64,000 bases of DNA from Pseudonocardia benzenivorans CB1190 (GTDB lineage Bacteria > Actinomycetota > Actinomycetes > Mycobacteriales > Pseudonocardiaceae): positions 124,001-188,000 of the forward strand of contig NC_015312.1 of the NCBI RefSeq assembly GCF_000196675.2. Reading direction: 5' to 3'. The notes beneath the pieces are model-generated. The model did not search any database. It was not told where the DNA came from and saw only the letters and a program-made list of their open reading frames with translations. Positions 59,765 through 62,094 of the stretch are shown here, one piece after another. Position numbers and translations under genes: made by a program. Each line of letters opens with the position of its first letter. The stretch's first letter is position 1.

Positions 59765-60451
59765 ATGACGGAGGGAACGCCCGGCGACGAGCGGCCGGAC
59801 GCGAGTGGCGAGCAGCCGGCGCAGCAGCCGCCGGAGTCGGAGGGACGCCTGGGTCCAGGGCCGGGCCCGGGTCCGGACGGGCCGACGCGCCGCGGCCGGA
59901 TGAGCTTCCAGGACGAGTCCACCACGCCCCGTGAACCCACGCTCGCCGAGGCGCGCGCCCGTCAGCAGGCCGAACGCCGCCGTCGCGAGGAAGCGTCGGC
60001 CAAGTACGCCGCCGAGCAGGCGAAGAACAAGAAGCGCAAGCGGATCCTCATCGGCACCGGGGTCACGGTCGGGGTCGTCGCGGTGATCGCCATCGGCTAC
60101 GCGATCTCGAACAGCAACGACGAGGTCGAGGCGCGCTGCGTCGACGCGAACAACGTCGTCGTCGACGACAGCAACTGCGTCACCCCCGCGTCGAACAACA
60201 CCGGCTACCACGGCGGCGGCTTCTTCCCGATCTTCATCGGGGCCGGCGGCGGCCAGTACCACTACAACTACGGCGGCACCGGCAACGTCGGCCAGGTCGC
60301 GTCGGGCGGGACGACCGTCGTCCCCAAGGACTCGACGACGGTGAAGAGCGGCACCTCCGGCAAGACCATCTCGCGCGGCGGGTTGGGCGTCTCCAGCGGC
60401 AGCGGCAAGGGCTCGAGCGGCGGTTCGTCCGGCGGGAGCAGCGGGTCGTAG
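59765..60451 (+). CDS. DUF1190/YgiB-like single-span protein of the ATP-grasp module
   Basis: A 228-residue protein. Residues 1-85 are charged and Gln/Arg-rich; a membrane helix lies at 95-115 (ILIGTGVTVGVVAVIAIGYAI). The outer part begins DEVEARCVDANNVVVDDSNC, matching the DUF1190 (YgiB/YjfM) pattern of paired Cys and DANN-DD residues. A Gly/Tyr-rich part and a C-terminus SRGGLGVSSGSG typical of the family follow. Function unknown. It is followed without a gap by the ATP-grasp gene, and TACGGT lies 17 bases before the ATG. Confidence 0.75.
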   Translation: MTEGTPGDERPDASGEQPAQQPPESEGRLGPGPGPGPDGPTRRGRMSFQDESTTPREPTLAEARARQQAERRRREEASAKYAAEQAKNKKRKRILIGTGVTVGVVAVIAIGYAISNSNDEVEARCVDANNVVVDDSNCVTPASNNTGYHGGGFFPIFIGAGGGQYHYNYGGTGNVGQVASGGTTVVPKDSTTVKSGTSGKTISRGGLGVSSGSGKGSSGGSSGGSSGS

Positions 60452-61618
60452 ATGCGCAGGGAACGATCGACGCCGCGCCCGGGCTGGCAGCAGACCGTCG
60501 AGAGCCAGGGCATGGTCTACGGCACCCCGGGCCGTGGCGAGGGCGGCACCGCCCGCCCGTACTGGGACGAGTCGGTGCACTACGTCTTCGAGATGGACGA
60601 GATCCTCTCGCTCGAGGCCGACGTCGAGCTGCTCCACTCGATGTGCCTCGACGCGGTCGACCACGTCGTCACCACGGAGCGGTTCCGCGACTTCGCGCTG
60701 CCCGAGTGGTCGTGGCAGGCCGTCGCCGACTCGTGGAAGCGGCACGACCCGCACGTCTACGGCCGGTTCGACCTGCGCTACGACGGGTCCGGCCCCGCGA
60801 AGCTGCTGGAGTACAACGCCGACACCCCGACGACGCTGCTCGAGGCGTCGATCCTGCAGTGGTACTGGCTCAAGGACACCCACCCCGACGACGACCAGTG
60901 GAACTCCCTGCACGAGAAGCTCGTCGAGCGCTGGGGTGAGATCCGGTCGAGCCTGCCCACCTCGGAGGTGCACTTCACCTGGTCGGGCTCGGACACCACG
61001 GGCGAGGACCACGTCACCGTCGGGTACCTGCAGGAGACCGCGGCCGAGGCCGGCATCGACACCGTCGGGCTGGCGATCGAGGACATCGGCTGGGACGTGA
61101 CGCTCGACAGGTTCGTCGACCTCGCCGAGGCGCCGATGAACGCCGTCTTCAAGCTCTATCCCTGGGAGTGGGCCCTCACCGACGAGTTCGGCAAGCACGT
61201 CGCCCGCAGCCTGCCGGACACGCTGTGGATCGAGCCGCTGTGGAAGTCGTTGCTGTCCAACAAGGCGCTGCTCGCGATCCTGTGGGAGATGTACCCCGGG
61301 CACCCGAACCTGCTGCCCGCCTACCTGCAGAACCCCGGCCTGCTCACCGAGTACGTCAAGAAGCCGCTGCTGGGCCGGGAAGGGGCGAACGTCTCGATCG
61401 TGTCACCCGGCAGCGAGGTGTCCACCGGTGGCGTGTACGGCGAGGAAGGATACGTCTACCAGCTTTTCGACCCGTTGCCGCAGTTCGACGGGTTCCGTCC
61501 CGCACTGGGCGCGTGGGTGGTCGGTGACACCTCGGCCGGGCTCGGGATTCGCGAGACCGTCGGGCTGGTGACCGACGACGGCGCGGCGTTCGTCCCGCAC
61601 CGCATCCCCGAGTCCTGA
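60452..61618 (+). CDS. Glutathionylspermidine-synthase-like ATP-grasp ligase
   Basis: A 388-residue protein matching the GSP synthetase domain of YgiC/YjfC. YGRFDLRYDG, LLEYNADTPTTLLEASILQWYW, IEPLWKSLLSNKALLAILWE and KPLLGREGANVSIV carry the ATP and magnesium-binding residues. The closing AWVVGDTSAGLGIRE is family-typical. The family forms amide bonds between peptide-like acids and amines, but these stand-alone versions have no confirmed substrate. The ATG starts right at the previous stop; DUF350 follows 23 bases later. A membrane stress role is inferred from Psp-linked relatives. Confidence 0.92.
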   Translation: MRRERSTPRPGWQQTVESQGMVYGTPGRGEGGTARPYWDESVHYVFEMDEILSLEADVELLHSMCLDAVDHVVTTERFRDFALPEWSWQAVADSWKRHDPHVYGRFDLRYDGSGPAKLLEYNADTPTTLLEASILQWYWLKDTHPDDDQWNSLHEKLVERWGEIRSSLPTSEVHFTWSGSDTTGEDHVTVGYLQETAAEAGIDTVGLAIEDIGWDVTLDRFVDLAEAPMNAVFKLYPWEWALTDEFGKHVARSLPDTLWIEPLWKSLLSNKALLAILWEMYPGHPNLLPAYLQNPGLLTEYVKKPLLGREGANVSIVSPGSEVSTGGVYGEEGYVYQLFDPLPQFDGFRPALGAWVVGDTSAGLGIRETVGLVTDDGAAFVPHRIPES

Positions 61619-61641
61619 TCCCGCTCCCCGGAAGGAACACA

Positions 61642-62094
61642 ATGACCGCCCTGTTGGCCCTCGAGCCGGGGTTCTTCTCGACCGTCGGCCGCGGCATCGG
61701 CGCGATCCTGCTGTACGCGCTCATCGGTCTGCTGCTGATGCTGCTCGGTTTCTGGGCGATCGACCTCACGACGCCCGGCAAGCTCAACCGGATGGTCCGC
61801 GACGGCCTGCCGAACGCGGTGATCGTCACCGCGGCGGGCATGGTGAGCATGGCGCTGATCGTCGTCACGGCGATCTGGAGCGTCTCCGGTGCGCTCGCCG
61901 AGGGCCTGCTGGCCTCGTTGATCTTCGGCCTCGTCGGGATCATCGCGCAGGTGCTCGCGGTCCGGCTGCTGGAGTGGGTGACGGGCATCGACATCGGCGC
62001 GGTCCTCGCGGCGCCCGACGTCCGGCCGCAGGCGTGGGTCGTCGCCGCCGCGCACATCGGGCTGGGTCTGGTCGTCGCGGTCGCGATCCTGTAG
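61642..62094 (+). CDS. DUF350 membrane protein (YjfL-like)
   Basis: A 150-residue four-span protein with two repeated two-helix DUF350 units (IGAILLYALIGLLLMLLGFW, AVIVTAAGMVSMALIVVTAI; GLLASLIFGLVGIIAQVLAV, AWVVAAAHIGLGLVVAVAIL). The short loop DLTTPGKLNRMVRDGL is family-conserved. E. coli YjfL is encoded beside YjfM (DUF1190) and YjfC (ATP-grasp), the same trio as here. Function unknown. GGAAGGA lies six bases before the ATG, so it is in the same operon. Confidence 0.88.
   Translation: MTALLALEPGFFSTVGRGIGAILLYALIGLLLMLLGFWAIDLTTPGKLNRMVRDGLPNAVIVTAAGMVSMALIVVTAIWSVSGALAEGLLASLIFGLVGIIAQVLAVRLLEWVTGIDIGAVLAAPDVRPQAWVVAAAHIGLGLVVAVAIL

Follow-up and report, generated by a model that had tools for sequence, protein, structure and literature searches.

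In Escherichia coli, the ATP-grasp ligases YgiC and YjfC have been reported to be peptide-spermidine ligases (Pederick 2023, Biochemistry, as cited in the available text of PMC12568646), and RefSeq lists both of them under that name. Their genes stand in small sets, YgiB-YgiC and YjfL-YjfM-YjfC. Furthermore, PspA-less operons of the yjfLMC-like type, combining ATP-grasp, DUF350 and DUF1190 genes, have already been published, as far as the available text of a survey of PSP systems goes (PMC11237479, mSystems 2024). Two points of the initial annotation of the locus considered here are consequently outdated: the unestablished product of the ligase, since the activity of YgiC and YjfC had already been reported, and the lack of PspA as a feature of note, since operons of this kind are published.

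The locus and its three products

The window, i.e., the whole stretch of 64,000 nucleotides of Pseudonocardia benzenivorans CB1190 that was analysed, carries three consecutive genes on the + strand (59765-62094), contiguous and with the coordinates originally read. P0001 (59765..60451) encodes a protein of 228 aa that we call the partner; the start codon of P0002 (60452..61618, 388 aa) lies directly 3′ of its stop, and 23 nt separate P0002 from P0003 (61642..62094, 150 aa). Upstream of the trio, on the opposite strand, are found a Septum_form gene (Pfam) and a zincin-like gene, and downstream genes for a HAD hydrolase, PAP2, UbiA and a nucleotidyl transferase, so that the setting beside a septum-formation gene was correctly recognized. 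The same is true of the lack of PspA: there is no PspA gene near the trio (183-186 kb), and the two PspA-family genes of this genome are far off (G000:C1:4953895 and 6559069).

P0002 is the only GSP_synth gene of the genome and matches PF03738 over its full length (positions 1-371 of 371, E 1.6e-152, Pfam), with no amidase domain. The closest solved structures are those of E. coli YgiC (7uk8, E 2e-92) and YjfC (7uk6, E 8e-82), and Foldseek concurs; identity with YjfC is 41%, and the nearest named relative, from Pseudonocardia sp. N23, is 92% identical. Alignment to the glutathionylspermidine synthetase Gss reveals R105, D107, E120, N122, K271, K304 and R367, which we take, from structural work on Gss, to be the catalytic Arg, the Mg ligands, the ATP-binding Lys residues and the loop Arg; the aligned Gss positions (R316, D318, E330, N332, K498, K533 and R598) are invariant across the actinobacterial ligase set. 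In turn, residues of the glutathione site of Gss are altered in the ligase (S337 to T, E392 to D, T441 to L). Hydropathy finds no membrane span in P0002, and an export signal is also absent. P0002 belongs with the ATP-grasp amide ligases of YgiC/YjfC type and is intact, as first described; its homology with the E. coli enzymes predicts a peptide-polyamine ligase activity. As for P0003, both the Pfam match to DUF350 (PF03994, E 1.8e-21) and its four hydrophobic spans agree with the earlier reading of the third gene.

The partner P0001 comprises a cytoplasmic N-terminal arm, one hydrophobic span (aa 94-112; 60044..60100), an extracytoplasmic Cys pair and a Gly/Ser-rich tail. A Lys/Arg-rich stretch comes before the span and acidic residues come after it, a charge pattern from which the C-terminus is predicted to be outside. 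In the alignment of the Cys pair C125...C139 (60137..60181), C125 is invariant and the C139 column is conserved in at least 90%, which supports the original description of a single-span protein with extracytoplasmic paired Cys; there is no lipobox. Towards the end of the molecule lie an RGGLG motif (aa 204-208; 60374..60388) and the C-terminal tail (60389..60451), ending in S-S-G-S before the stop.

The relation of P0001 to DUF1190 is less direct than initially proposed. No Pfam family matches P0001, and DUF1190 (PF06693) is unmatched even at E <= 1, so its assignment as a family call was dropped; E. coli YgiB and YjfM do match this family. Neither the partner of a Mycobacteriales MAG (L188) nor that of Arthrobacter gives a DUF1190 match, and none of 150 genomes of the order contains one over the cut-off. 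In four partners of family f13, encoded by the gene adjoining the ligase, sub-threshold matches appear (E 0.02-0.11). Profile-profile comparison by HHalign between actinobacterial partners and the DUF1190 group yields a probability of about 95% directly, over just 22-135 columns, and 98% and 98.9% in the two steps that lead to DUF1190 via an intermediate phage group; column-shuffled controls score lower, the highest being one within-block shuffle at 86%. A link is thus suggested only remotely, through intermediate relatives, and P0001 is probably a distant relative of DUF1190 and not a member of the family.

Synteny and distribution

Besides this genome, 18 members of the family were sampled. 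Partner, ligase and DUF350 genes stand in a row in 16 of them, and the other two, from genus g5, have neither ligase nor partner; the trio is, in other words, syntenic in 16 of the 16 sampled members bearing the ligase. The module claim had been made to depend on a DUF1190 profile match of the first gene and on synteny in related genomes: the former fails, the latter holds.

At the level of the order, the ligase is present in 56 of 150 genomes and P0001 homologues in 33, of which 32 bear the ligase; the single P0001-like match in a ligase-free genome is weak and limited to the span region. Families f13, f8, f2 and part of f16 keep the trio in unrelated neighbourhoods. Family f15 and others keep just the partner and the ligase together, so the core is the partner-ligase pair. 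Two arrangements deserve mention in their own right: a second ligase copy (L082; G111:C1:8204745-8205866), located away from the usual locus, is accompanied by a short partner of its own with a GGS end, and in Actinomadura-type loci (L172-L189) a second conserved gene (286-289 aa), possibly another ATP-grasp protein judging from its sequence, precedes the partner.

DUF350 genes occupy 95 places in the 150 genomes. The ligase is the neighbour in 36 of them and an aminopropyltransferase in 39, with no place beside both; of the 20 that adjoin neither, 18 belong to genomes whose ligase has no adjacent DUF350. A DUF350 gene that is not linked to speE exists in 54 of the 56 ligase genomes versus 2 of the 94 others (Fisher p about 1e-35, relatedness ignored). 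In family f15 genomes (L297:2564-4422), the unlinked DUF350 gene comes after a glutamine-synthetase-family gene; this neighbour was set aside as a proof of polyamine chemistry, its best-fitting model being ordinary GlnA.

These neighbourhoods bear on a reading close to that of the initial annotation, according to which the ligase would aminate another envelope acceptor, such as a peptidoglycan peptide or a lipid-linked molecule, the partner and DUF350 just localising the enzyme. Membrane partners, together with the septum, PAP2 and UbiA genes that adjoin the trio in this genome, are what one would expect in such a case; nevertheless, the neighbouring genes change completely across families while partner and ligase persist, and phages carry the pair as well, so that we hold this option to be quite improbable. 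A functional tie of the trio to the septum and arabinan genes was rejected, being a local feature that differs in other families.

The C-terminal end of the partner

Ligase neighbours were surveyed in 80 named genome loci, 40 regional loci and 80 viral contigs, with YgiB and YjfM added from E. coli. In phages as in Actinobacteria, Proteobacteria and Firmicutes, the gene next to the ligase encodes either a lipoprotein or a one-span protein, with a highly variable body and a conserved end: [R/K/S]GG[F/L/Y/I/W]G, usually 7-14 residues, and then S-x-G-[G/S/A/E]. Such a partner is near-universal: motif search found it adjoining the ligase in 186 of 201 loci, 6 further loci with variant motifs, or missed or misassigned by the search, were added after inspection, and most of the remaining partner-less loci correspond to contig ends or unparsed ORFs. 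The signature is present in about 190 partners.

The conservation is strictly positioned. Gly occupies position -2 in 92, 88 and 83% of partners at three levels of redundancy (163, 112 and 71 proteins, respectively), within-tail shuffles giving about 35-38% (z 14.8, 12.0 and 9.3), and position -1 is G, S, A or E in 99-100%; Ser is enriched at -4, whereas Gly at -3 shows no enrichment over the same shuffles. Gly/Ser-rich tails do favour small end residues, a bias for which the within-tail shuffles control, and composition alone is therefore ruled out. This ending is found in 90.6% of partners versus 5.8% of 622 other genes near the loci. A ribosome-binding site of the ligase read as protein is also discarded, since the signature is kept in 23 non-redundant partners encoded downstream of the ligase or at a distance of over 90 nt from it (Gly at -2 in 78%, a small residue or Glu at -1 in 100%). 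The C-terminal signature common to ligase partners is a new observation, in addition to the PspA-less operons and the YgiC/YjfC activity already known: neither the signature nor the partner as a substrate is reported in the literature searched, most subscription papers falling outside it, and the available text of the PSP survey (PMC11237479) makes no mention of the former.

Phage and plasmid records were held out, picked after the hypothesis was formulated from one search list, for diversity and not randomly. A partner is encoded in phages 44RR2.8t, ZZ1, Phosso and MD-2021a; DSS3_VP1 shows no partner, but its ligase gene lies at the end of the record. Among plasmids, 11 of 12 records present the partner, among them two with ligases of just 24-26% identity (Virgibacillus and Pseudomonas FeN3W), and in Rhodobacter and Sulfitobacter it is located downstream of the ligase. 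Looser versions of the motif are found in the tails of Virgibacillus, Pseudomonas FeN3W, Azospirillum oryzae, Rhizobium and Tistrella. The exception is Azospirillum argentinense (L291:3016-4167), with no partner and a degenerate-looking ligase in which the NADTPT and KP-GREG motifs are altered. In these records it was also observed that a band-7 protein is encoded just upstream of the pair in Aeromonas phage 44RR2.8t (L278:190-1113), similarly to the band-7 variant of the PSP survey, and that the Arthrobacter partner lipoprotein (L283:2376-2879) is annotated as a tRNA-dihydrouridine synthase, a name that is probably wrong.

Proteases and degradation systems commonly recognise C-termini, and the tail could accordingly be a signal for proteolysis, degradation or folding, its adjacency to the ligase reflecting mere co-regulation. 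Two observations make this explanation clearly unlikely: hosts and phages of very different kinds have the same tail beside the ligase, and no partner accompanies the sole held-out ligase whose active site looks degenerate.

The simplest reading is that the tail itself is amidated, because enzymes of this family make amides on peptide carboxylates, only the end of the partner is constant and the genes travel together. P0002 would use ATP to activate the C-terminal carboxylate of its neighbour P0001, the predicted acceptor, and would attach an amine to it, spermidine or another polyamine being the likeliest choice. The RGG[F/L]G motif situated about 10 residues from the end may direct docking, with the terminal S-x-G-[G/S] residues entering a pocket equivalent to the site of the glutathione Gly in glutathionylspermidine synthetase. 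The tagged P0001 would then reside in the membrane exposing a positively charged tail to the outside, and the DUF350 protein could be an accessory membrane component that perhaps carries the amine or offers a platform for docking. To the central step, the amidation of the P0001 tail by P0002, probably with a polyamine and before export, we assign an even chance on the basis of these sequence comparisons. Its extension to a widespread bacterial and phage system, in which the ligase would modify its operon partner, a dedicated protein of lipoprotein or one-span type, before export by capping it covalently at the C-terminus with a polyamine, is put forward tentatively, at somewhat short of an even chance. 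The envelope-linked amide-forming system proposed in the initial annotation would in this way be right in kind and turned round in direction: the addition of an amine to the C-terminus of the neighbour is better supported than that of a peptide to a membrane acceptor.

The topology counts against tail amidation and constitutes its unsolved problem. Partners are exported and the ligase has neither signal nor span, so that the reaction must take place before export or the amidation model is wrong. In an AlphaFold2 prediction of a read-through fusion of the partner tail with the ligase, the tail is disordered, just as when the partner is predicted by itself; the C-terminus of this fusion is not free, and the outcome weighs neither for nor against the amidation model. 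A cytosolic ligase with an exported partner is also compatible with the synthesis of small soluble peptide-polyamine conjugates, the partner being an extracytoplasmic sensor or binder of the polyamine or conjugate and its conserved C-terminus a binding element. Homologues are known to act on peptides in vitro (as cited in the available text of PMC12568646), and the published operons include channel and sensor proteins, according to the available text of PMC11237479. Such a scheme, which we regard as rather doubtful, leaves unexplained why the chain end is so fixed, with Gly at -2, a small residue at -1 and 7-14 residues past the motif, when the rest is hardly conserved.

Regarding the amine that tail amidation would employ, the genome of P. 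benzenivorans encodes AdoMetDC and SpeE domains fused in one 399-aa protein (L313:1817-3016; G000:C1 near 3573316-3574515), and the fusion gene adjoins an ODC-like decarboxylase gene, so spermidine synthesis is probably possible. In the Mycobacteriales MAG (L188:2344-8903), the trio is flanked by an ODC-like decarboxylase on one side and by arginine deiminase and ornithine carbamoyltransferase on the other, and in phage Motura a homospermidine synthase gene (hss) adjoins the ligase (PMC9992855). Spermidine as a universal amine is unsupported: trio-bearing genomes of family f13 (G012, G026, G036 and G045) have neither AdoMetDC nor SpeE matches and may use another amine or import it, so that spermidine cannot be assumed.

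Comparison with known systems

YgiC and YjfC are known enzymes without an agreed natural substrate, for which the conserved C-terminus encoded next door constitutes a concrete candidate. If capping occurs, it would represent their natural function and add a new type to the C-terminal modifications of proteins; moreover, it would connect envelope proteins with polyamines in many bacteria and explain the presence of the pair in T4-like and jumbo phages.

The E. coli sets YgiB-YgiC and YjfL-YjfM-YjfC resemble the Pseudonocardia trio in the family of their ligases, the yjf operon also in its DUF350 gene, and YgiB and YjfM have partner tails of the same type, ending in GG. Unlike them, the trio has a one-span partner with no lipobox and no DUF1190 match, and no PspA, YjfI or YjfK alongside. 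The PspA-less operons of the PSP survey, in its available text (PMC11237479), contain an ATP-grasp ligase, DUF350 and an exported protein, as here, and some of them polyamine genes; the replacements described there, DUF4247/DUF2617 or band-7, are absent from the trio.

With Gss and trypanothione synthetase, P0002 has the fold and catalytic residues in common, and it differs from them in lacking the amidase domain and in its glutathione-site residues; furthermore, no lipoprotein gene adjoins gss in E. coli. In turn, Pup/PafA, ubiquitin-like modifiers and graspetide ATP-grasp ligases involve ribosomal polypeptide substrates with a short conserved C-terminal or motif signal (GG, GGE). The system predicted for P0002 would depart from all of these, since a small amine would be added onto the partner, and not the partner onto proteins, with no ring being formed.
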